Shown here in pieces: positions 32,353 through 44,968 of a stretch of DNA of 64,000 bases. This DNA comes from Magnetococcales bacterium. Its GTDB lineage: Bacteria > Pseudomonadota > Magnetococcia > Magnetococcales > Magnetaquicoccaceae. The stretch is taken from positions 1 to 64,000 of the forward strand of contig JADGAR010000016.1 of NCBI GenBank assembly GCA_015231915.1. The letters are read 5' to 3'. The notes beneath the pieces are model-generated. The model saw only the letters and a list, made by a program, of their open reading frames with translations, did not search any database and was not told the origin of the DNA. Each line of letters begins with the position of its first letter. Positions within the stretch are counted from its first letter, which is position 1. The position numbers and the translations under genes were made by a program.

Positions 32353-32552
32353 GTTCGCTCTCCTGTCAAGGAATTGATCCTGCGACGGGCCTCGAAAAAG
32401 GCCCGACAAGAGCATAAAGCAGCAAGCGTGCCGATCCTCATCCGGCACAAACAGCGACTCCTGTGGAACCAATCAGGGAGTCGCCACGTCCAATCCAGCA
32501 ACGATCATCCACCGCAACGCAACAACAGCCTGGTACGAAAGTTCATGGTCCA

Positions 32553-34070
32553 ATGCGCATCGCCCCGGACACTCCCCTGCCCCCGTGTCACGCACCGCTC
32601 TCATGGGGCTTCGACAACAGTTACCAGCGCCTGCCGGAACGGTTCTACACCCGTATCGCCCCGACTCCGGTCCCGGCGCCACGCCGCTTGCTGCTGAACC
32701 AGCCTTTGGCCGAGGAGTTGGGCCTGGCCACACCGTGCGAGCAACCCGAATTCACCCGGATGCTGGCTGGCAATCGTCTGCCGCATGACGCGCAACCCAT
32801 CGCCATGGCCTACGCCGGGCATCAATTCGGCCAGTTCGTGCCAAGCCTGGGCGACGGGCGCGCCATTCTGCTGGGCGAAGTGATCGATCGCCACGGCCTG
32901 CGGCGTGACATTCAACTCAAGGGGAGCGGCAGGACCCCCTACTCCCGTCAGGGAGATGGCCGCGCCTGGCTGGGACCGGTATTGCGCGAATACCTGGTCT
33001 CGGAGGCCATGCATGCACTGGGCATCCCCACCACGCGCGCCCTGGCGGCGGTGGCCACCGGAGCACCGGTATTCCGCGAGGAGGGGGCCATGCCCGGAGC
33101 GATTCTGACACGCGTGGCCGCCAGCCATGCACGGGTCGGCACTTGTGAGTATTTCGCCCATCGCGGGGATTGGGATGGCCTGCGGCTTTTGACCGGTTAC
33201 CTCCTTGCCCGCCACTTTCCGCAGTCCGACGACGGCAAACCAGCCGCGCTGGCGCTCCTGGAAGGGGTCGCCGCCCGTCAGGCGGCACTCATCGCACGCT
33301 GGATGGAGGCAGGCTTCATCCACGGGGTCATGAACACCGACAACATGACCATCTCCGGAGAGACCATCGATTACGGCCCCTGCGCCTTCCTGGATGAATA
33401 CGACCCGACGACCGTCTACAGTGCGATCGATCCCTTCGGTCGCTATGCCTTCGGCAACCAGCCGCGAATCGCGGCCTGGAATCTGGCGCGACTGGCCGAC
33501 GCCCTGCTGCCGCTCCTGGATCCGGACCCGAAACGGGCGATGACCTTCGCCGAGGGGATCATCGAGCGCTTCCCGGAACAGTTTGCCGCCGAATGGCTGG
33601 GGGGCATGCGCCGCAAGCTGGGTCTGTTCACCGCCCAGGCCGGCGACGAGGGGCTGATCACGGAGTTGCTGAACGCAATGCATGCCAATCGGGCCGACTA
33701 CACCCTGACCATGCGCGGTCTGTGTGGGGCGTCCATCGAGGAACAGGCCGATAGCGGAATCGCGCAACGCTTTGCCGACGAAACGCGCTATCGATCCTGG
33801 GCAGCGCGCTGGCGGGCGCGATTGCGCGCCGAGGATACCCCGGCTGCGTTGCGCGCCGACACGATGCGCCGGGTCAACCCGGCCTGCATCCCAAGAAACC
33901 ACCAGGTGGCTGCCGCCCTGGACGCAGCCGTGATCCAGGATGACCTGGCCCCCTTCCGGCAACTCCTGGAGGTTGTGCAAAACCCCTACGACGATCTGCC
34001 CGCCATGGCCCGACTGGCGCTGCCCCCTACCCCCTCCCAGCGCATCCGCAACACCTTCTGCGGCACCTGA
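32553..34070 (+). CDS. selO: SelO (YdiU/UPF0061) protein adenylyltransferase
   Basis: Pseudokinase-fold enzyme that AMPylates proteins in redox homeostasis. The 505 residues carry MAYAGHQFGQFVPSLGDGRA, IQLKGSGRTPYSRQGDGRAW, GVMNTDNMTISG and IDYGPCAFLDEY, the hallmark active-site and metal-binding stretches. The C-terminus ends RIRNTFCGT; Cys sits where some SelO proteins carry selenocysteine. The start at ATG 32553 has no obvious ribosome site. It converges on the aldo/keto reductase gene with 7 bases between stops. Confidence 0.96.
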   Translation: MRIAPDTPLPPCHAPLSWGFDNSYQRLPERFYTRIAPTPVPAPRRLLLNQPLAEELGLATPCEQPEFTRMLAGNRLPHDAQPIAMAYAGHQFGQFVPSLGDGRAILLGEVIDRHGLRRDIQLKGSGRTPYSRQGDGRAWLGPVLREYLVSEAMHALGIPTTRALAAVATGAPVFREEGAMPGAILTRVAASHARVGTCEYFAHRGDWDGLRLLTGYLLARHFPQSDDGKPAALALLEGVAARQAALIARWMEAGFIHGVMNTDNMTISGETIDYGPCAFLDEYDPTTVYSAIDPFGRYAFGNQPRIAAWNLARLADALLPLLDPDPKRAMTFAEGIIERFPEQFAAEWLGGMRRKLGLFTAQAGDEGLITELLNAMHANRADYTLTMRGLCGASIEEQADSGIAQRFADETRYRSWAARWRARLRAEDTPAALRADTMRRVNPACIPRNHQVAAALDAAVIQDDLAPFRQLLEVVQNPYDDLPAMARLALPPTPSQRIRNTFCGT

Positions 34071-34077
34071 CGCCGGT

Positions 34078-34875
34078 TCATGCGAGCAGGCCGGTCACCT
34101 GTTGACACTCCTCCCCGGTCAGCTCGAACTCGCGGATGGCCAGATCCTCCCGCATGTGAACGGGAGATGTGGTGCCGGTCAACGGGGTGACACCAACCTG
34201 GGTCAGATAGCGGAACAGAATCTGCGCCCCGCTGCGTTGATGACGCCGGGCAAGGGCCTGCACCACAGGATGATCCAGCAGGTGGGGGTTGGCGGTCAGC
34301 GTCCAGAAACTCTGATAAGAGATGCCCTGCTGGTTGCAAAAGGCGCGAATCTGACGGTCATAGCCGGTGGCGGCATAAAACCGGTTCTGAATCACCGCCG
34401 GAGGCGTGGCGCAATGCTCCGCCAGATAGGCCACCAGACGCGGGTCGTAACAGTTGCTGATCCCCAAACGGCGTACCCCCTCTTGCCGGAACAGCCCCTC
34501 CATGGCGCGCCAGACCGTCATGGTCTCCGCCACGGTGGCAAGCGGAGAGTGCAAGACGAGACAATCCAGATAGTCGGTACGCAAATTCTGCAGGGAGACC
34601 TGAAAGGATTGCCGCACCTGCTCTTCCGGCGAGGCATGGGGATCATATGGCACCCGACCGGGATCCTGACCGGCCAGGGGGGTGAATTTGGTTTGCAGAT
34701 AGAGTTCATCGCGACGCAACCCCCGTTGCATGGCGAGCGCCACCCCCTCCCCGACGCCGGCTTCGTGGTAGTGTTTGGGTTGACAGGCGGTATCGATGGC
34801 GCGAAAACCGGCTGCCAACGCCTGCGCCACCAATCCGGCGGTGCGCTCCTTTTTCCAGGCGGTTCCGTAAATCAT
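34078..34875 (-). CDS. Aldo/keto reductase
   Basis: A 265-residue NADPH-dependent oxidoreductase of the aldo/keto reductase superfamily. The catalytic tetrad can be placed: Asp28 (AIDTA), Tyr36 (KHYHE), Lys63 (LQTKF) and the His in CLVLHSP. GISNCYD and a C-terminal LTGTTSPVHMREDL match the usual SNF and cofactor-binding GTT regions. The start at ATG 34875 follows GGAGGGAAGGG; an ATG at 34890 is also possible. Substrate cannot be assigned. It lies 28 bases after the pilY1 stop on the same strand, but is unlikely to be a pilus gene. Confidence 0.9.
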   Translation of the reverse strand: MIYGTAWKKERTAGLVAQALAAGFRAIDTACQPKHYHEAGVGEGVALAMQRGLRRDELYLQTKFTPLAGQDPGRVPYDPHASPEEQVRQSFQVSLQNLRTDYLDCLVLHSPLATVAETMTVWRAMEGLFRQEGVRRLGISNCYDPRLVAYLAEHCATPPAVIQNRFYAATGYDRQIRAFCNQQGISYQSFWTLTANPHLLDHPVVQALARRHQRSGAQILFRYLTQVGVTPLTGTTSPVHMREDLAIREFELTGEECQQVTGLLA

Positions 34876-34903
34876 TGCCCTTCCCTCCATGGCGCAATCC
34901 ACC

Positions 34904-37900
34904 TCACTCCGTCACCTTGTACCAATACCGCCGATAGCGGGCATTCAATTTCGGGCCGATGGGTTCGTCCACGCGCACGCCGGAGACCACGCCGGTCATG
35001 GTCTGGCCGCCAATCTGCACGATCACCGGCGTCGGCGGCGGCAGGAATCCGCCGCCAGGATGAATCTGCGCCCGATCCACGCCGGTGGTCTTGCTGTCGG
35101 TGTTGCGATCCGCTACGGCAGTGGCGTCGGAAAACTTGACCTGATAGGCCCGCGCCAACCCCAGATTGCTCACGCAACTGGTCTGATCCACCACCGAGGC
35201 GGCTTGATGGGTGTTGAAAAACGTGGTGCCGTTGATGGTGATGGCGTGACTCACCAGCTTCTCCCCCTCCAGCAACTTGATGTACCACCCCTTGGCGGCA
35301 GTCAGAGCGGCCTGGGCCGTGGACGAGGTCTCCCCGCCGGTGCAGGCAGTGGCGTCCTGTATGCAGTCGGAAGTGGCATCGAACAGATCGGCCTCCGTGA
35401 TGTCCGCCGCCGTGGAGGTGGTGCCGGTGTTGACATCCTTGAACATGTACATCCGATTCTCCACGCTGGTGTCCAAAGGATGCTCCCGATCCCCGCTGCC
35501 GATCAAAACCGCATCGTACCCCTTGTCGTACACCACGTCCGGCGGATAGAGAAATTTGCGCAAACCGTGGGGAATGTCTGCGGGATCCGCGATGGTTGCC
35601 AGCCGGGTGACCGTCCAGGCGTTCACGTCGGCAGACGCCATGTTGATCCGCCAGACATTGCCTCCGGTATCCCCCACATAGCCCCGGTTGATGATCGTAC
35701 CCCCGTTGTTGGTCATGACCGTGACATCGCTTGGAATGCTGTAATTCATGCCGCTGACGGTCAGATACGGATGGGTGCCGCTATCTTCGACCGCACGGCC
35801 CGGACCGGCCTGCCACAAGATGTTCCCGGTGGCCGCGTCCACCACGAAGATCCCCCGCCCCATGCTGCGCGAATAAACCGCTGTCCCGGTGGTGACCGTG
35901 GTGGCGGAAACGGCGGTCACGATGCTCTGGGGCGTGATGTCCTCCACCGTGGGATCATAACCCGCCCCGAAAATCAACACCGGATTGCCGCCATTGGCGG
36001 CAAACTGGCTGATCACCCGCGGCTCCGACCAGGTGTAGCCCAACTCCGTGAAACCCGTCGCGTTGTTGTCCTTCTTCCACAAGAATTTCGGGGCCTCCGG
36101 TTCCGTGATGTCCAGGGCGTAAAGGAAACGACCGCCACGCCGCATGCCGATAAACAGCCACACCTTGTCTCCGTCCGCCGCCAACAACTTGCCGTCGTTG
36201 TTGGCGTCCAGCACATAGGAACCGATCGCCCCATCCGCGAAATATGGCTTCTTGTTGGCACTGGAGATGATGGGATCGTTGTTGCGCAACCGCTTCAGAT
36301 AGGGGAAAAACTCCGTGGGAATGAAACCCCAGACCTCATGGCCCGGATCGGCCTGTCCCGACTCGCTGGAAAAACCGCCCTTGACCGCGCGGAACACCCC
36401 GTCGTTGGCCCCGTAAAAGACCATGACATCGTGGTCCGTGCCGTAGCGGTTGTAGTTGATCACCGCCGGCTTGGAGTGCAACACGTCGTTATGGACCGAA
36501 GCGCGCACATCGGTGGAGGAGGCATTGGTGTTCTCGTCTTCGTAATTGTCCTCGCCCCGCACCCAGTTGATGAGGCCCTCCCTGGACGACTCGGCGGCGA
36601 CCACACCGGCCTCCTCGGCGGTGATGACCCCGGAAGCCGCCCCCTGGGCCGACGCCAGGGGATAGGTGAAATGATCCACGTCCGTCACGGCGATGGTGAA
36701 GGTCCCGTTGAACGCGGTGGGCGTGGCACCGGCAATGGTGATGGGAGCACCGTCGGCAAAACCGTGGGCAACCGCCGTGGCCCTGGCGGTGGTGGAGGAT
36801 TTGCCCGCAATGAGGGTCCCGCTGGCGGCCTGTTGGGGAGCAGATCCCAGGGCGTACTTGAAGTGGTCGGCATCCAGCACCGTTACCACGAAAGAACCGT
36901 TGTAGACCGTTGGGGTGGCCCCGGAGACGGTGATGGTATCGCCGGTGGCATAGCCGTGCCCGGTCAGGGTGGCGAATGCGGTGGGAGTGGCAAGGCGCGC
37001 CGTGATGGTCCCACTGCCCGGGGTGGGGGTGGAGGCCAGAATATAACTGAAACTGTCATCGTTGATTTTGATGATGGCATAGGTACCATTATAGTCATTG
37101 GGAGTCGCCCCGCTGATGGTGACCAGATCATTGGTGGCAAAACCGTGTCCGGGGACCACTGCCGTGACCTGATTGGAGGTCCCCCTGGAGGCGGTGATAC
37201 CGGTGCCGGTCTGGGGTGGCAGGGCGGTCGCGGTGGTATAAGTGAAAGTGGTGGCCCCGGTGACAGCGACAACATAAGAACCGTTGTAATCCGTGGGCGA
37301 GGCATTATTGATCGTAACGGTATCGCCACTGGCAAAACCATGGGCCGCAGCCGTGGTGGCGGTCACGGTGGCACTGCCCTTGGTGGCGGTGATGGTGCCT
37401 GTGGCGTTGGCCATCTGGGAGGCGGCATAGGTGAAGGTGTTGACAGTGGGCACGGACACTACCGTGACATTGCCGTTGTATCCGGACGGCGCAGCCCCGG
37501 CGATGGTGACGGTGTCCCCCACCGCGTAACCATGCGCACTGACCGTGGCGGTGGCCGTCGAGGTCTGGCCGGAGGCGGTCCCGAAAGCGGTGGGCACACT
37601 TAACGGTGCGACAGTGGTGAAACGAAAAGTGTTGGCATCCTGCACCGTGACCGAATAGGTGCCGTTGAAGCCGGTGGGGGTCGCCCCGGAGATGGTGACG
37701 GACTGGCCGGAGACGAAGCCGTGTCCGGTGACCGTGGCCGTGACCAGGGAACTGGTGGTGGTGGAGGTGCCGGAATTGCAGTCGTTGGCGGAACCGTTGG
37801 CGATTGAATAACGGAATTTATTGCTGTCCACCACCGTGATGCTGAAGGTCCCGGAATAGCGATCATTGCAGGTCGGGGCAGAGATGGTGACGGTCTGGCC

Positions 37901-39682
37901 GCTGGAATAGCCATGACTGTTGATGGTCAACTCGGCGGTGCCATTGCTGGGCCGGGTCAGCAGGGAGATGCTCTTGACCACCGGGGAGTTGCTCAGGTTG
38001 CTGATCGCGCTGCTCCTGGTGGTGGTCAGGGAGGTGACGCTCTTGGTGACCGACCCGTTGCTCAGGCTGTTGACGGCCACCGATCCTGCGGCTGTGGCAA
38101 GCGACGTGACGGATTTGATGTCCGCAAGCGCCGTGATGGTCTTCTCCTCTATGGCGGTCAACGGGGAGACGGTGTGAACGTTGAGGTTCAGGCTGGCCGA
38201 GGTGATGTCGGCGTTGGCCGTGTTGAAGGGATAGAGGGAGAGGGCATCCCCGCTGGCGCAAAGCCCGGTGCAGGTATAGAGTGTGCGCGCGGTCTGGCTG
38301 ACAGCGTAGGCGTTACGCACCATTTGCGCCACCCCGCCCTTTTCCACCAGATCGCCGTCCGGCATGTCGGAAGAGCCGCCGGCGCCGTTCTCCGAGCTGT
38401 CGCGGAAATCCCAGAAGCTGGAACTGGTGGTCCAGAAACTGGTGACATCCGGGTTCAAGAACCCGGTGCTGGTGTTTTCCGCCTTCACGGAGTTCTTGTC
38501 CGCCAGAAAGAGATCCCCGGTGGCAGAATCATAACCGAGTTGATAACATTTCAGGTTGCCATACCAGCGCGGCCTTTTCTGGCTGTCCGGACGGAACATC
38601 CCCACGTAGACCTGGTTGAGGTTGGTGCCGCGCACGTTCACGCTCACCGGCAGGGTGGTGGCGGCGAACACGCTGTTGACCGCCTGAATCTCCTGAAAAA
38701 TCTCGTTGAGGGCATTGATGATGGCCTGCCCGGAATTGCCGCTGGAAACGGCGAAATAACGCCCCTGCCCCTTGTTGGCCATGCTCTTGAGCAGGGCGGT
38801 CATGTCCGGCCCCTGGCCGGTGACGATGGGATCCACCTCCACGACGTAGGTATGGACCGACTGGGTGCCGTCCTTGGCGCTGCTCACGTCGGCGGTGGCC
38901 AGGTAGTTGGCCCACTCGTCGGCCCAGTTGCCCTGCTGGCCGCTGGGCGAAAGCGCGATCGTGCCCGGAGGCGTGGACCCGGTCAAGGCGGCCAGCTTGT
39001 CCTCTGAGGTCCTGCGGGCCGTGGCGTTTTCGTTGGCGGGGCCGTTGCTGATGTAGATGATGAAATTCTTCTGGCAGCCGGAGGCGATGGGCGAATTGTA
39101 CAAAGAGGTGGCCGTGGGATTGGCCGGCAGGGCATAACTGCCCAGATTGTTGGCGGAGGCCGGATTGTTGGTGGCGTTGTTTTCGTAGTCGGTCTTGATC
39201 TTGCCGTAACCGGCACGGGAGGCGGCCCCGGAATAGTAGAGAAACGACTCGTACATGGCCAGACCGGTGGTGGCGTTGTTGCCCTTGTCGTTGAGGATGT
39301 CGAGGGCGTTGACCATGTCGGCCAGGACGGTCTTGTTGGTGTTGGTCATCTGGCGCATGGCGAAGCGGACATAGCCGCCATCCACGTTGTCGTTGGGATT
39401 GCCGGTTTCGGGGAACATCATCAATCCCACATTGAAGATGTCGTTGAGGTTCTGCACCACCGAGACCAGGGCGGATTTTTCGTTGACGAAGGGCTGGTTC
39501 CAGTTGGCGGTGTTGTCCAGGACGATCAGGACATTGGGGCGATCCGCAGTGATGTTGGGATTGCTCAGGAAGAGGTCCGTGTCGTCGTTCACCGGGTCGA
39601 AGGCGGCCCGCGCCACGCCCGCCAGCGTCAACCCCAGACAGAGGGAGAGCAGTAATCCGATGATCCAGCGTCTCACGTTCAT
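34904..39682 (-). CDS. pilY1: PilY1-like type IV pilus tip adhesin/assembly protein with FCCH-like repeats
   Basis: A secreted 1592-residue PilY1-family protein. A signal peptide (MNVRRWIIGLLLSLCLGLTL) is followed by a vWA-like domain (PNVLIVLDNTANWNQP). The C-terminal PilY1 beta-propeller runs from about residue 1080, with GANDGVFRAVKGG, EVWGFIPTEFFPYLKRL and the calcium-loop-like LDANNDGKLLAADGDKVW, and reaches the end. Between them lie seven tandem modules of about 65 residues (residues about 580-1020), each with an HG(F/Y)..GD.V.I.GA.P..YNG pattern. PilY1 promotes pilus assembly and surface adhesion. It is the last gene of the pilE-fimT-pilV-pilW-pilX-pilY1 operon. Confidence 0.92.
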   Translation of the reverse strand: MNVRRWIIGLLLSLCLGLTLAGVARAAFDPVNDDTDLFLSNPNITADRPNVLIVLDNTANWNQPFVNEKSALVSVVQNLNDIFNVGLMMFPETGNPNDNVDGGYVRFAMRQMTNTNKTVLADMVNALDILNDKGNNATTGLAMYESFLYYSGAASRAGYGKIKTDYENNATNNPASANNLGSYALPANPTATSLYNSPIASGCQKNFIIYISNGPANENATARRTSEDKLAALTGSTPPGTIALSPSGQQGNWADEWANYLATADVSSAKDGTQSVHTYVVEVDPIVTGQGPDMTALLKSMANKGQGRYFAVSSGNSGQAIINALNEIFQEIQAVNSVFAATTLPVSVNVRGTNLNQVYVGMFRPDSQKRPRWYGNLKCYQLGYDSATGDLFLADKNSVKAENTSTGFLNPDVTSFWTTSSSFWDFRDSSENGAGGSSDMPDGDLVEKGGVAQMVRNAYAVSQTARTLYTCTGLCASGDALSLYPFNTANADITSASLNLNVHTVSPLTAIEEKTITALADIKSVTSLATAAGSVAVNSLSNGSVTKSVTSLTTTRSSAISNLSNSPVVKSISLLTRPSNGTAELTINSHGYSSGQTVTISAPTCNDRYSGTFSITVVDSNKFRYSIANGSANDCNSGTSTTTSSLVTATVTGHGFVSGQSVTISGATPTGFNGTYSVTVQDANTFRFTTVAPLSVPTAFGTASGQTSTATATVSAHGYAVGDTVTIAGAAPSGYNGNVTVVSVPTVNTFTYAASQMANATGTITATKGSATVTATTAAAHGFASGDTVTINNASPTDYNGSYVVAVTGATTFTYTTATALPPQTGTGITASRGTSNQVTAVVPGHGFATNDLVTISGATPNDYNGTYAIIKINDDSFSYILASTPTPGSGTITARLATPTAFATLTGHGYATGDTITVSGATPTVYNGSFVVTVLDADHFKYALGSAPQQAASGTLIAGKSSTTARATAVAHGFADGAPITIAGATPTAFNGTFTIAVTDVDHFTYPLASAQGAASGVITAEEAGVVAAESSREGLINWVRGEDNYEDENTNASSTDVRASVHNDVLHSKPAVINYNRYGTDHDVMVFYGANDGVFRAVKGGFSSESGQADPGHEVWGFIPTEFFPYLKRLRNNDPIISSANKKPYFADGAIGSYVLDANNDGKLLAADGDKVWLFIGMRRGGRFLYALDITEPEAPKFLWKKDNNATGFTELGYTWSEPRVISQFAANGGNPVLIFGAGYDPTVEDITPQSIVTAVSATTVTTGTAVYSRSMGRGIFVVDAATGNILWQAGPGRAVEDSGTHPYLTVSGMNYSIPSDVTVMTNNGGTIINRGYVGDTGGNVWRINMASADVNAWTVTRLATIADPADIPHGLRKFLYPPDVVYDKGYDAVLIGSGDREHPLDTSVENRMYMFKDVNTGTTSTAADITEADLFDATSDCIQDATACTGGETSSTAQAALTAAKGWYIKLLEGEKLVSHAITINGTTFFNTHQAASVVDQTSCVSNLGLARAYQVKFSDATAVADRNTDSKTTGVDRAQIHPGGGFLPPPTPVIVQIGGQTMTGVVSGVRVDEPIGPKLNARYRRYWYKVTE
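36620..37940 (-). repeat. Seven FCCH-like modules within pilY1
   Basis: Seven in-frame modules of about 195 bases, each recognisable by HGY/HGF followed by a Gly-Asp/Gln turn, VTI.GA.P, and YNG or FNG. They resemble the E1-FCCH-type beta module seen in bacterial surface and phage tail proteins. Sequence drift between copies is considerable, so the expansion is not recent. Confidence 0.8.
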
Positions 39683-39700: not shown

Positions 39701-40150
39701 CTACAATTGGGGCACGCAGGTGGGACAGCACGACCCGACCAGTTGCCGCACCTGAATGCCCTGATGAATGGTGGATTTCGCTCCGGTGGCGCTGTTGGTG
39801 ATGGTGGCCTGCAACTCCCAGACGTTGTCCCTGGGGGCCATGGACCAGACCGCGCTGCTGCCGGTGGCGACCTGTGAATGAATGCATTGCGGGGCGGCCA
39901 GGGTACCCGTGTCCGCCCCTTCCGTGAAGGATTGCGAGGGCGTATCCACCGAAAAATTGGCGCTGCTCGAAATGAAGAACTCCAGCGCCCGCTGGGAGGC
40001 CGCATCCATGTTCTTCACGGTCTGGGTGTTGCCGATGATGCGCAATTGCACGGTGCTCACGTTCAGCGAAGTGACCACCAACAGGGTCAGGACGATCAGA
40101 ATGACCAGGCTGGTCAGCAGGGTGGCGGCGCCTTGCGATGGGTGGTTCAT
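39701..40150 (-). CDS. pilX: PilX-like minor pilus protein
   Basis: A 149-residue minor pilin-like protein. The N-terminus MNHPSQGAATLLTSLVILIV has the G-A-A-T-L-L variant of the prepilin hydrophobic helix seen in PilX (no Glu5). SLNVSTVQLRIIGNTQ and AASQRALEFFISS follow the usual PilX helix. C-terminal Cys pair (GSCCPTC). The ATG at 40150 overlaps the pilW stop by 4 bases and has an AAGGAG site 7 bases upstream. It lies 18 bases before pilY1. Confidence 0.85.
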   Translation of the reverse strand: MNHPSQGAATLLTSLVILIVLTLLVVTSLNVSTVQLRIIGNTQTVKNMDAASQRALEFFISSSANFSVDTPSQSFTEGADTGTLAAPQCIHSQVATGSSAVWSMAPRDNVWELQATITNSATGAKSTIHQGIQVRQLVGSCCPTCVPQL

Positions 40151-41262
40151 TCCACGCTCCTTGGTCCCGCGAGGTTGACCAACCGCACCTCGCTGCTGAA
40201 GAGATGGCGTTTGTAATACTGATTGTTGCCAGTGAACGGGCCGAAGATGTCGTCTCCCAAGGTATAGGTCTTGTCGTCCACCTGGCCGGTATCGCTTTGC
40301 GGAGTACGCACCAGCAGATACACCTGCACCGCGACCACGGAGTTCCACTGGCTCCACGGGGTGGCCGTGGTGGCAAAGGGGGGTTCGGGAATGCCGTCAC
40401 CGTCCAGCCCGGTTTGATCCTTGAGGTTGACGATGCCCGCGACAAGGTCGAGACCGTATTTCAGTTTCATGGCCTCGACCCCCTCGGCAAGCGGAATGAT
40501 TATCATGGTTGTGACACCACCATCGACAGAGAGTTCCAGGCGTTTCAGGGTGGGAATGGTGTCGTCGCCAGCGGCGCAGACCCCGTTTGCGCCGCTGCCC
40601 GAACTGCATGGGGCGACGAAATAGACATGCACCCGGTATTTGCGGATCTCGGCTGCCGTGCCGTCCAGTTTGGTGATGGTGGCGCTGCCGGCGGTCACCG
40701 TGCCATCTTGAATCGAGTGGGTGATGGCGCCGTTCTTGAGGATGCCGGCCTGGGTGACGTTGGCCTGCAGGTAAATGACCCCGGTCTCCCCGGCGCCGGT
40801 CAGGGGCTGGGTCTCGACGCGCCGCACCACCACGATGTCCGAGCCGGGCTGCTGGTTGGCGGCGGTCAACAGGGCGGCACAAGAGGTCGCGGAAAAATCC
40901 ACCACGTCGTTGAGGGAGGCCGGGCGATAGCCGTGCACCGGCATGGCCATGGCATACAGGAGATCGGCGTGGTCGGTGGTGTTGCAGGGATCCGGGGCCG
41001 AGGTGCCAGGATAGGTCTGGGAATTGAAGAAATGGGTGCCGAAATAACCGGCATTGCGCAGGTCGTCGTACAGTTCGTTCACGGCGAAATGGCCGTTGAG
41101 GAGCATCTGGCCGGCTTGATCGAGATCTTTTTGCGATCGGGAGGAGTTGGCCAGCATGGAGATGATGCCCATCAGGATCACCAGGCCGATGGAGAGGGAG
41201 ATCATCACCTCCACCAGGGAGAATCCCGCAATTGCGGTCGAGGAGGGGCGGTTCGGGTTCAT
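40147..41262 (-). CDS. pilW: PilW-like minor pilin
   Basis: A 371-residue prepilin. The class III signal is AIAGFSLVEVMISLSIGLVI, cleaved after Gly with Glu at +5, followed by a hydrophobic helix. DLRNAGYFG downstream is a PilW hallmark. The C-terminal half is beta-rich, with acid-rich loops and an internal Cys pair region (APCSSGSGANGVC). It overlaps pilV upstream and pilX downstream by 4 bases. Member of the minor pilin complex that primes type IV pilus assembly. Confidence 0.9.
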   Translation of the reverse strand: MNPNRPSSTAIAGFSLVEVMISLSIGLVILMGIISMLANSSRSQKDLDQAGQMLLNGHFAVNELYDDLRNAGYFGTHFFNSQTYPGTSAPDPCNTTDHADLLYAMAMPVHGYRPASLNDVVDFSATSCAALLTAANQQPGSDIVVVRRVETQPLTGAGETGVIYLQANVTQAGILKNGAITHSIQDGTVTAGSATITKLDGTAAEIRKYRVHVYFVAPCSSGSGANGVCAAGDDTIPTLKRLELSVDGGVTTMIIIPLAEGVEAMKLKYGLDLVAGIVNLKDQTGLDGDGIPEPPFATTATPWSQWNSVVAVQVYLLVRTPQSDTGQVDDKTYTLGDDIFGPFTGNNQYYKRHLFSSEVRLVNLAGPRSVE

Positions 41263-41921
41263 GTGCCTGCTCCTGCATGCGTTGCCAGGGACGCGGCGGT
41301 GAGATTGGCGAAGCGTACCGTGGTGGTCACCGCGCGCCGCCAGGCGTCCGAAGAACCGTAAAGGTTGTTGGCGCAGGCCGCCGTGGGTGCCTGGGTGGCG
41401 GCCATGCCCTGCCAGGCCACGGTGATGGTGTACAGCCCGGTTCCGGAAATGAGGGCACCCACGCTGTCGGACAATTCACTGGCGGCATCGTAGCTGATGC
41501 AGGCCCTGGCTCCGATCATCGGGCGGACGCTGGCGCCCGCCTTGGTTTCCGCCGATCCCAGCAGCCGGTCTTGCAGGGCCTGGATGGTGGTATCGGCGAG
41601 ATCGTTGTACTGCCAGATGGTGCCTGCCGCGCAGCCGACCGGGAGGGTGACGGTGCCGTCCACGCCGATGTAGGGGGTGCCGTTGGTCAGGTTGGTGGTG
41701 AAGCGGAAGCAGGAGAGGGTATTGCGGTTGACATTGAGGTGTTGCACGATCTCATCGAGGATGATCAGGGCCTGGGAGCGCTGGTAGGCCTCGAAGCCTG
41801 CCACATGGACGCGGCTGATCACGCCGGCCATCCCCATCAGGCCCACCGAGACGACCAGCATGGTGATGAGGATCTCCAGCAGGGAGAAGCCGCGCATTCG
41901 GGATGGAGAGATGGCGTTCAT
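41259..41921 (-). CDS. pilV: PilV-like minor pilin
   Basis: A 220-residue prepilin with cleavage motif MRGFSLLEILITMLVVSVGL (Glu at +5) and the PilV-typical helix continuation GLMGMAGVI. Predicted periplasmic domain contains Cys residues (LSCFRF, VGCAAG, ARACISYD, TAACANN) that could form disulfides. It starts 2 bases from the fimT stop and overlaps the pilW start by 4 bases. Part of the minor pilin set. Confidence 0.88.
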   Translation of the reverse strand: MNAISPSRMRGFSLLEILITMLVVSVGLMGMAGVISRVHVAGFEAYQRSQALIILDEIVQHLNVNRNTLSCFRFTTNLTNGTPYIGVDGTVTLPVGCAAGTIWQYNDLADTTIQALQDRLLGSAETKAGASVRPMIGARACISYDAASELSDSVGALISGTGLYTITVAWQGMAATQAPTAACANNLYGSSDAWRRAVTTTVRFANLTAASLATHAGAGT

Positions 41922-41922
41922 G

Positions 41923-42402
41923 TCAGTTGCACCCGTTGTTCGGATCCGCGTCGCCGTCGATCTTGACGTGGGCCATGCCGCTCACCCCGACGGTCACGCA
42001 GCGCATGGCGACACCCGTGTTGTCGGCGATATAGGCATTGAAGGCGCTCACGGTGGCTGCGGGACGGCCATTGGCCTGGAAGGTGATCGTACCGCCCGGC
42101 ACGGAGAAGGTCACGTCCGGGCGTGCATCCATGGATTTGAGCACAGCCCCTCCCGCCTGGACGGTCCAACCCCCGGACCAGCCGCCAGCGGAGGGGACGA
42201 TATCGACGTTGCCGCTGCGTTTGATCGCCTCGCTGCGGGCATAGGCCAGGCTCATTTGGTAATCGGAGATGCTGTTCTTGATCTTTTGTGTCTGGATGAT
42301 GTCGCGCAGGTAGGGCACCCCCATGACGAGCAAGATGGCGACGATGCTCAGGGTGATCAGCAGTTCCAGCAGGGTGAATCCGTCATGGGGCGCTTTGTCC
42401 AT
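41923..42402 (-). CDS. fimT: FimT/GspH-like minor pseudopilin
   Basis: A 159-residue prepilin. DGFTLLELLITLSIVAILLV is the cleavage site and hydrophobic helix with Glu at +5. YARSEAIKRSGNVDIVP and the C-terminal GMAHVKIDGDADPNNGCN are typical of the FimT/GspH fold, where the arginine-containing tail has been linked to DNA binding in natural transformation in relatives. Here the tail is Asp-rich instead. It begins 30 bases after the pilE stop. Confidence 0.88.
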   Translation of the reverse strand: MDKAPHDGFTLLELLITLSIVAILLVMGVPYLRDIIQTQKIKNSISDYQMSLAYARSEAIKRSGNVDIVPSAGGWSGGWTVQAGGAVLKSMDARPDVTFSVPGGTITFQANGRPAATVSAFNAYIADNTGVAMRCVTVGVSGMAHVKIDGDADPNNGCN

Positions 42403-42915: not shown

Positions 42916-42944
42916 AAAATGCATTTTCTTTCGTGATGCATTTT
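42916..42944 (-). terminator. AT-rich inverted repeat with T tract after the KGGVGR ATPase gene
   Basis: Perfect 8-base arms (AAAATGCA and TGCATTTT) separated by 13 bases sit directly after the ATPase stop codon. On the minus strand the second arm runs into seven T in a row. The stem is AT-rich, so it would be a weak intrinsic terminator; an operator role is also possible. Confidence 0.4.
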
Positions 42945-44968
42945 CAGGCCTCCAAAAACAATTCCGCCATGATCTCTGCGGCATTGGGACAAAAGAGCGA
43001 CAGGTCGCGCGGATCCCCTGCCCCATGGCTGCACCCTTCCGCAAAGGGACGGAACCGGTCCAACCATTCCTTGGAGAGGGGCGCGTCCTTCAGGTTTTCC
43101 AGGATTGCCGCCGGGGGGTCGAGAAACCAGCGCAGCGCCTGCCGGCAGCGTTCCCGCAAATCCGCACGCAGGCCGGCAAGCAAATAAAACTCCAATATCG
43201 CATGCAATCTTTGCTCATGAAGCAGCCATCCACAGGCCATTTCTTCAATGGGTTTGGCCTCCAGCGTCAAGATGGAACGTGCCAGGAGCAGATCAAAATC
43301 ATTGACATGATGCAGCAATCCCTCTTCGATTGCCTGAAAGAGTTCATTGCAGGTTTCGGGAGGGTGACCCAATGCAATCGACAATATGGCGCGCAAGCAC
43401 AACATACCAACAGATGATTCTTTTAATCTACGATTCAATGCATGACTCAAAGACTTTCTTGCCAGACGCTCTTGACCAAGCACAAGTAATATATATCCAT
43501 CATATTTCAAAAAATAAGGAAAATTAAGTTCCAAGGAGAGGCCGAGACGGCAATATTGTACTCCTTTCTTAAAATCCATTTTATTATAAAAATAATAAAA
43601 TGACAATGCATGGATTGCAGCAATATTGCTGCCGTCAATAGCAAAAACTTCTAGAAATTTTTCTTCAGCATCTTGTGCACGCATTAGATTAAAAGAATAA
43701 AGATACCCAACCCCTAACAAACTTGGTATAAATTCCGCATTAAATTGCAGTGCCAGGAGATACGCTGCCTCGGCCTCGAAAAAACGGCATTGCGTGTGAT
43801 GCTGCAAAATATCTCCAAGAGTATTATACAATTCGGCTCGATCCGGATGCTGCCCGATTGCACCACGCACCATGGTTTCGGCCTGGACGATCAGGGCCGG
43901 TTGCTCAAAACGAATCCACTGCACCAAATCGACGACTCTTGGCCATGTATCCGGGGGGTTCTGCAACAGAGGCTGGAGGATGGCCTGGATTTCGTCCGGC
44001 TTGGGCTTGGGGAATGCCTTTTTCAGAATGAGAAAATGGGACCAGGGATCACCTTGGGCCGCATCTTTGGCCAGTTGCAGTAGCCGCCGATTCCATCCCC
44101 GTTCATCCTCCTGCAAAAATTGCAGCACCTGCTCAACCTTCTTAATTGGTATACCAGGCAGCGCCAAGGCTTTCCGGATGGCATCCATGGCTCCCGTTTG
44201 GCCGCCCGGTTCTGTCAGCAGTTCTCTGGCCAACAACCACCAGTAGTGGTCCCGTTGCTCCCAGGCCGGAAATGGCCGCAGATCCAGCAAGGGCCAGTGC
44301 AAAAAACGATACCGTCCCACCCTCATCGACGGCGCGACAATCTCCGCCCATTCTTTTTGAAATTGAAAATATTTTTCAAGCAACGAATTGGCGTGCATGC
44401 TCTGGAGCGAGGCTAATGTCTGTTTTTCTTTGTTAAAAATATTAATTAATTCTTTAATTTTATAAGTTGAAAATTGATTGGCAATTCTCAACACCCCCAG
44501 TTTATCATCTTTGGACAGAGAAATCGATCCCGCCACTCCATTCAAAAACACCTCGGCACGGTACTCCACATGCCGCCACTCGCCGATCAACTCCCGCATC
44601 CGTTGTTGCGGATCCACCTCCCGGTTCGGGTCCAGGGACAAGGGCCAATGCCAGGGAGGCAGTTGCACAATATCCGCCAGAAATGCCTCGCTCGACTCCT
44701 CAACCGGTGCGGATGACCGCTCCTGAACCGGTTTTGCCAGAACATCCAGAGGTTCGTTCCAGGCCGTGTGATACACCTCCATCAAATCACCAAAACCCGC
44801 CTGGACGGTCAACCCATCGTCAAGGAGATAACTCAAGCCTGGCGCGGCCAGATCCATGTCTACCAATCCCACCACCCGCCCCTGGGATGCCCAATGAGCC
44901 GCCAGATTGACCAGCAACGCGGTCCGGCCAACCCCTCCCTTGAAGGAATAGAAGGCAAAGATTCTCAT
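42944..44968 (-). CDS. KGGVGR-motif ParA/MinD-like ATPase with TPR-like C-terminus
   Basis: A 674-residue cytoplasmic protein. The N-terminal domain is SIMIBI/ParA-like: FYSFKGGVGRTALLVNLA is a deviant Walker A in which the usual Lys of GKT is Arg, and GLVDMDLAAPGLSYLL is Walker A-prime. This is the KGGVGR-variant ATPase type known from bacterial conflict and signalling systems. Residues about 290-670 are helical and TPR-like (for example AEAAYLLALQFNAEFIPSLLG and LGQERLARKSLSHAL). G+C falls to 15 of 60 bases in 43561-43620, unlike the flanks. The ATG overlaps the stop of the upstream gene (ATGA). Last gene of a three-gene operon. Function is unproven; defence or regulated cell response is inference. 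Confidence 0.82.
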   Translation of the reverse strand: MRIFAFYSFKGGVGRTALLVNLAAHWASQGRVVGLVDMDLAAPGLSYLLDDGLTVQAGFGDLMEVYHTAWNEPLDVLAKPVQERSSAPVEESSEAFLADIVQLPPWHWPLSLDPNREVDPQQRMRELIGEWRHVEYRAEVFLNGVAGSISLSKDDKLGVLRIANQFSTYKIKELINIFNKEKQTLASLQSMHANSLLEKYFQFQKEWAEIVAPSMRVGRYRFLHWPLLDLRPFPAWEQRDHYWWLLARELLTEPGGQTGAMDAIRKALALPGIPIKKVEQVLQFLQEDERGWNRRLLQLAKDAAQGDPWSHFLILKKAFPKPKPDEIQAILQPLLQNPPDTWPRVVDLVQWIRFEQPALIVQAETMVRGAIGQHPDRAELYNTLGDILQHHTQCRFFEAEAAYLLALQFNAEFIPSLLGVGYLYSFNLMRAQDAEEKFLEVFAIDGSNIAAIHALSFYYFYNKMDFKKGVQYCRLGLSLELNFPYFLKYDGYILLVLGQERLARKSLSHALNRRLKESSVGMLCLRAILSIALGHPPETCNELFQAIEEGLLHHVNDFDLLLARSILTLEAKPIEEMACGWLLHEQRLHAILEFYLLAGLRADLRERCRQALRWFLDPPAAILENLKDAPLSKEWLDRFRPFAEGCSHGAGDPRDLSLFCPNAAEIMAELFLEA

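Follow-up and report, generated by a model that had tools for sequence, protein, structure and literature searches.

PilY1 proteins act at the point of contact between a type IV pilus and a surface, where their variable part would govern how far the pilus reaches, what it targets and how it senses force. About a third of published PilY1s have a vWA head. The P. aeruginosa-type PilY1/PilC of type IVa pili combines a propeller, a vWA head, an EF-like calcium loop and a minor-pilin operon, all of which recur at the locus described here; the difference is that about 530 extra residues, a lead-in and seven barrels, precede the propeller here, and that the metal site (MIDAS) of the vWA head is degenerate. 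PilY1.1 and PilY1.2 of M. xanthus, which carry DUF4114, and PilY1.3 likewise place accessory modules on a common propeller, but there the variable part is the N-terminal domain. In the available part of one comparison of published PilY1s, vWFA and DUF4114 are the only domains named (PMC13190605). Open-licence PubMed Central yielded no publication that describes modules of FCCH type in a PilY1. The same type of barrel, with HG(F/Y) and YNG-type motifs, occurs in phage E1_FCCH/End_beta_barrel proteins, sometimes several times per protein; here, in contrast, seven stand in tandem inside a pilus adhesin, whereas the annotated phage ORFs hold one to three. Betaproteobacterial PilY1s of the same subfamily carry such modules at the same site, in numbers of 7, 6, 6, 4, 3, 3 and 1, as against a constant seven in Magnetococcales.

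The window analysed is a stretch of 64,000 nucleotides from a genome of 4.02 Mb in 133 contigs, which belongs to the Magnetococcales, an order known for magnetotactic bacteria. Judging from its sequence, the 1592-aa protein encoded there is a PilY1, the putative tip protein of a type IVa pilus, composed of a vWA head, a pre-propeller region and a propeller, with the array of modules seated in what is otherwise a short linker (Table 1). The top Foldseek match of the propeller is 3hx6 (E 7.3e-13; profile search E 2.6e-10), the solved C-terminal domain of P. aeruginosa PilY1. The Pfam family PF05567 gives 22.7 bits against a cut-off of 28.1 and is absent from the hmmscan listing; two orthologues pass the same cut-off (G004, 28.5 bits; G010, 28.1 bits), and the threshold reflects detection, not biology. 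Searches of the source genome with PF05567 and with a subfamily profile found no second PilY1. An EF-hand-like loop in the propeller, whose D1159, D1163 and G1164 are nearly invariant among orthologues, is by analogy a putative calcium binder.

Table 1. The pilY1 gene, the parts of its product and the minor-pilin genes beside it, in window coordinates.
Feature	Position	Strand	Basis or remark
PilY1, whole protein, 1592 aa	34904..39682	-	ORF; propeller match to 3hx6
Likely signal peptide, aa 1-26	39605..39682	-	read from sequence
vWA-fold head, about aa 34-342	38657..39583	-	Foldseek, VIA-align
Degenerate MIDAS, D56-N-T-A-N60	39503..39517	-	ortholog alignment
Conserved pre-propeller region, aa 343-498	38189..38656	-	aligned in module-less PilY1s too
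Lead-in, aa 499-575, 77 residues, Ser/Thr-rich, beta-rich	37958..38188	-	part of the insertion
Module 1, aa 576-639	37766..37957	-	motif, profile; the array's only two Cys
Module 2, aa 640-702	37577..37765	-	motif, profile
Module 3, aa 703-766	37385..37576	-	motif, profile
Module 4, aa 767-831	37190..37384	-	motif, profile; best E1_FCCH match
Module 5, aa 832-894	37001..37189	-	motif, profile
Module 6, aa 895-958	36809..37000	-	motif, profile
Module 7, aa 959-1024	36611..36808	-	motif, profile
PilY1 beta-propeller, aa 1037-1592	34907..36574	-	3hx6 matches
EF-hand-like putative Ca-binding loop DANNDGKLLAAD, aa 1159-1170	36173..36208	-	sequence reading
pilX-like minor pilin	39701..40150	-	PilX_N 20.2 bits, cut-off of 25.5 not reached; homologues upstream of other pilY1s
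pilW minor pilin	40147..41262	-	PF16074 69.4 bits
pilV-like minor pilin	41259..41921	-	N_methyl 25.4 bits
fimT/fimU-like pseudopilin	41923..42402	-	GspH 48.5 bits, N_methyl 28.4 bits

The vWA fold of the head was recognized by VIA-align, which relates it to 4fx5 (Z 16.4, rmsd 2.9, 177 residues aligned) and to 6tnj (Z 16.2), the vWF domain of the tip protein Mfa5; these alignments span the vWA only, and the barrels lie outside their coverage. Foldseek matched the N-terminal part to vWA/I domains, and Pfam VWA reached 19.0 bits, under its cut-off of 23.8. At the metal site, DNTAN replaces DxSxS and S212-N213-G214 replaces TDG, the two motifs usual for the MIDAS of vWA domains, and the DxSxS of a working MIDAS was not found in the vWA head of the 1592-aa protein. 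D56-W61 and S212-G214 are invariant in an alignment of 13 ortholog rows (A1), so that constraint maintains a vWA that lacks the usual metal motif. D56, N57, A59 and N213 are invariant also in a second alignment (A2) that includes two module-less rows; the degeneracy is therefore not coupled to the modules.

The HG(F/Y) motif recurs at aa 590, 654, 717, 781, 846, 909 and 973, in steps of 63-65, and the seven modules extend over aa 576-1024, about 449 residues (window 36611-37957). As a chance control, a module profile was built after removal of the six bearers that belong to the genus of the window; with it each module scores 64.3-80.3 bits, and the maximum among 2000 shuffles of the block was 11.7. 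The original prediction, made from the sequence alone, had seen seven FCCH-type modules here, and it is borne out by the motifs, by these scores and by an E1_FCCH match above cut-off. The extent it proposed, 36620-37940, is right at both ends to within about 20 bases, but it missed the lead-in. This lead-in consists of 35% Ser+Thr, has no aromatics, contains short SVTSL-like repeats and is predicted to be beta-rich (pLDDT about 67-88); it is present in Magnetococcales, partly present in one betaproteobacterial bearer (L039) and missing from another (L040). The array itself contains 29% Ser+Thr and no Trp, with acidic residues at 4% and basic ones at 3%, and the columns conserved among orthologues (chiefly HG, G, P, NG and F.Y) look structural. 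Within the protein, the modules are 29-47% identical to one another (mean 38%), and Tandem Repeats Finder detected no tandem array at the DNA level, only a 12-base unit in 1.9 copies. This indicates that the module duplications are old.

With E1_FCCH (PF16190) the protein scores 33.7 bits against a cut-off of 29.5, its best stretch being aa 771-828; in a six-frame genome search this stretch scores 19 bits, below cut-off; the other modules are tied to it through the shared module profile. End_beta_barrel (PF12195) reaches 27.9 bits, short of its cut-off of 35, and a search of the protein against NCBIfam gave no match. Among PDB sequences, the only match of the single protein is the phage endosialidase 4hiz (E 9.6e-4). 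PHROG 9998, a family of phage proteins of unknown function, matches seven stretches with an E of 8.1e-30, a value that the Ser/Thr-rich make-up may inflate. AlphaFold2 predicts barrels in the module region, with a pLDDT of mostly 75-90, and Foldseek relates them to 4hiz, to UBA1 structures and to many predicted phage proteins, some of them named FCCH. Two predictions of parts of the protein have mean pLDDT values of 64.2 and 64.9 and pTM values of 0.36 and 0.47, at which neither a rod shape nor the placement of head and propeller is readable. A ubiquitin-activating enzyme E1 was rejected as an identity, as no adenylation-domain family is among the six matches (E up to 1) and the barrel type alone is shared. 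Likewise rejected was the possibility, raised with the original prediction, that the block is a misread ordinary PilY1 N-terminal fold: the modules are predicted as separate barrels, and the vWA is located elsewhere.

Relatives of the modules are encoded on 23 viral contigs, found with a fragment alignment (A4) that is badly registered, at 33% mean column identity. Nine viral ORFs were annotated, one as a tail-tube protein and others with tail appendage, tail protein, baseplate wedge and virion structural families; two of the nine have no PHROG match at E 1e-5, and each holds one to three modules by the module profile. These family matches point to a module of phage-virion type, and the modules of the array are FCCH/endosialidase-type barrels, as in phage virion proteins. 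A tblastn search of the module block against phage records gave no match, perhaps through the low-complexity filter; the viral contigs do hold relatives. The ORF at L146:2653-3939 matches the phage tail-tube family PF18906 and carries one module of the array's type. Another viral ORF, L145:1543-4116, shows a weak YNCE-like beta-propeller (25.1 bits, cut-off 27.1) followed by three modules, a combination of propeller and barrels like that of the PilY1 described here.

In 53 PilY1 rows, the site of the modules was delimited as the linker that runs from the position equivalent to aa 472 to the one equivalent to aa 1037, by a local alignment that leaves out one locus with an in-frame TAG (L128). 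In 35 of the 53 rows, all module-less, this linker has 18-47 residues; it has 564-574 in 11 Magnetococcales bearers and 586, 614, 470, 369, 382 and 119 in betaproteobacterial ones. Read by eye, the module-less linker of L112 runs ...ITQAALG-AASSGERDSIIDWVRG, and the insertion here is bounded by ...ITSASLN (about aa 500) and VAAESSREGLINWVRG (about aa 1028). The linker thus resembles both ends, which places the insertion point inside it. By these alignments, the array and its lead-in are a clean insertion between the pre-propeller region and the propeller. The original prediction is upheld in that the block is truly inserted, the same flanks being joined by 18-47 residues elsewhere, and in that it separates the vWA fold from the 3hx6-type propeller. 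Modules are absent from the sampled PilY1s that were read outside the subfamily.

Among 61 relatives searched, 20 had a match and 12 a near-complete module-bearing protein. The gene is found in 12 of 48 Magnetococcales genomes, namely in 6 of the 11 that represent its genus and in 6 that belong to three further families, and all 12 orthologues have exactly seven modules, the other 11 being 60-90% identical to the protein described here. One of these genes (G001) ends with its contig at aa 1099, past the array, and is counted for modules while absent from the tree. Module number thus does not vary between strains, seven being a fixed trait of the gene lineage. With the original prediction it had been stated that a block carried by all close relatives would be a standard lineage trait, which would count against it; this largely applies, as all 12 orthologues carry the block, but the gene itself occurs in only a part of the genomes. 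Of 398 sampled Pseudomonadota genomes, 87 gave a match to the profile, and outside the 12 bearers no match spans the array; for lower-ranked matches at unread loci, absence was judged from the matched range alone, and four that start near aa 964-977 were read at their loci and have no modules. Module-only matches in this search (G075, twice; G252; G255; G350; G047:C166) fall in other proteins.

In 300 genomes from the order of the betaproteobacterium G398, 20 matches were found at E up to 1e-80. Seven modules are present in G398 (locus L039), six each in G460 and G664 (locus L128), four in G533 and three in G570; the remaining 15 of the 20 have none, the fifteenth (G450) having coordinates identical to G061, which was read as L060. 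Further bearers are L040, with three modules, and L041, with one and a frameshift. These counts depend on the profile, which may miss diverged modules, so that a count of six could be seven.

When each Magnetococcales module was compared with the other 11 proteins, its best match was the module at the corresponding position in 871 of 924 cases. This indicates that the seven modules predate the divergence of the genes and have been neither homogenised nor reshuffled, which rules out their concerted evolution. Variation at the strain level or by slippage is ruled out by the missing DNA-level array, the 29-47% identity between modules and the constant count. Seven modules everywhere, matched by position, mark the array as an old lineage trait rather than strain variation. 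In four ortholog pairs, dN/dS is 0.16-0.33 for the modules and 0.13-0.50 for the lead-in, against 0.09-0.14 for the vWA and pre-propeller region and values of 0.08-0.16 in the propeller. Purifying selection acts on the array, less tightly than on the flanks, while the length of the array hardly changes.

In a tree of the flanks alone (53 rows, 1049 columns; deduplicated, with more than 350 propeller residues required), the 11 bearers from Magnetococcales form a single clade with an SH-aLRT of 99, which joins the betaproteobacterial bearers G398, G460 and G664 at 99. The module-less betaproteobacterial G549 and G617 come next (87), and other Magnetococcales PilY1s are placed far away. To accommodate the seven rows of betaproteobacterial bearers, this tree requires three label changes or more. 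The nesting of the Magnetococcales flanks inside betaproteobacterial PilY1s suggests a horizontal gain, and the simplest account is that Magnetococcales acquired the gene from a betaproteobacterium, a direction that rests on the rooting and on genomes that are largely MAGs. It is unlikely that the gene and its array are ancestral in Magnetococcales or passed from them to betaproteobacteria: the modules are orthologous across several Magnetococcales families and the root of the tree is uncertain, but other Magnetococcales PilY1s fall elsewhere, and the nearest relatives of the array clade, whether they bear modules or not, belong to the sampled betaproteobacterial order. The minor-pilin genes, recognized by GspH, N_methyl, PilW and a sub-threshold PilX_N, lie directly upstream of pilY1, and homologues of the fimT-, pilV-, pilW- and pilX-like genes are found near the betaproteobacterial bearers too; the whole operon may therefore have been transferred together.

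As to function, the array can, with confidence just above even, be regarded as a stalk of fixed length, to which any glycan contact by the barrels would be secondary. Barrels of phage-virion type would have occupied the linker site in betaproteobacterial PilY1s; a single form with seven modules, probably accompanied by the minor-pilin operon, would have passed to Magnetococcales and then been held at fixed length. The propeller would dock on the minor pilins, and barrels in single file, at an assumed 2-3.5 nm each, would hold the vWA head and the pre-propeller region some 15-25 nm away, which would give reach beyond surface polymers. A stalk is preferred because the length and order of the modules are conserved more tightly than their surface sequence, because the composition is stalk-like and because the count is variable in betaproteobacteria; between orthologues, the module sequence drifts more than the flanks, and betaproteobacterial counts of 1, 3, 3, 4, 6, 6 and 7 at one site would, by analogy, fit different stalk lengths. 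In module-less forms the two points that flank the insertion are near each other in the chain, and a rod would therefore have to separate the propeller from the pre-propeller region; should these two normally be packed against each other, the array may fold back as a side arm, which would count against a stalk. The main rival reading, though somewhat doubtful, is a multivalent adhesive surface on which each barrel would weakly bind a polysaccharide or other polymer, seven would grip together and the degenerate vWA would no longer be the main binder. The nearest solved relative by sequence is the phage endosialidase 4hiz, and the endosialidase beta-barrel binds glycan as one of three polysialic-acid binding sites according to the accessible portion of a preprint (PMC12632334), and other PilY1s use an added DUF4114 that is thought to bind sugar, as stated in the part available of PMC9109919. 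The MIDAS residues are also lost throughout the aligned orthologues of the subfamily, but they are degenerate in module-less members as well. The lack of Trp and near-lack of charge in the modules argue somewhat against binding, including that of the specific surface or substrate considered in the original prediction, as do conserved columns of structural appearance, among which no shared candidate pocket was seen.

A mechanical buffer, in which barrels would unfold singly under retraction force and so shield the bond at the tip or adjust the sensing of surfaces, is improbable. The array occupies a place in the chain that matches residues 501-641 of P. aeruginosa PilY1, just before the propeller, which the accessible text of PMC11891296 describes as the mechanosensitive part, with ends predicted to be about 1 nm apart; homology to aa 343-498 is not implied. 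Pulling force would be available, since PilT-family ATPases are present: three matches to this family exceed the cut-off, and they lie on one contig (C100) together with the best PilM match. Force buffering, however, does not obviously demand a fixed count. That the modules derive from phage and were inserted neutrally or selfishly, with no role, is already disfavoured and very improbable; the modules do diverge faster than the flanks and many relatives manage without them, but their dN/dS, their constant number in 12 of 12 orthologues and the disappearance of the DNA-level tandem array all speak against it. For the stalk, a broader picture can be offered tentatively and at less than even confidence: the PilY1 linker may be a socket for phage-virion-type barrels, gained or lost several times in betaproteobacteria, from which the seven-barrel form and its minor-pilin operon moved to Magnetococcales and became frozen as a ruler for the distance between head and tip.

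The set of forms with and without modules at one site is the strongest part of this account, and function is the weakest. One PilY1 subfamily with 0, 1, 3, 4, 6 or 7 barrels at a single site is a matched natural set, in which some flanks are more than 50% identical to those of the protein described here; reach and binding could therefore be separated by comparing existing forms. It also adds a case in which a module common in phage virions would serve on a bacterial appendage.

Several genes in and around this set have features of their own. The module-bearing pilY1 of G664 (L128) carries a single in-frame TAG close to where the insertion begins, which may reflect a pseudogene, recoding or an assembly error, and that of a Polaromonas MAG (L041) is split over two frames, with its single module before the propeller. 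The contig of G044 that holds the module-bearing gene also encodes, about 12 kb away, another PilY1 (L170:2148-8291), a conventional one of 2048 aa with no clear modules and one marginal stretch (E 0.042). In the window, an aldo/keto reductase gene (34078-34902) lies downstream of pilY1 and, slightly past it, one for a SelO protein adenylyltransferase (32463-34070; 372 bits). Upstream of the pilin operon, at 42944-44968, there is an ORF of 674 aa whose first 50 residues weakly match a ParA/AAA_31-type ATPase.
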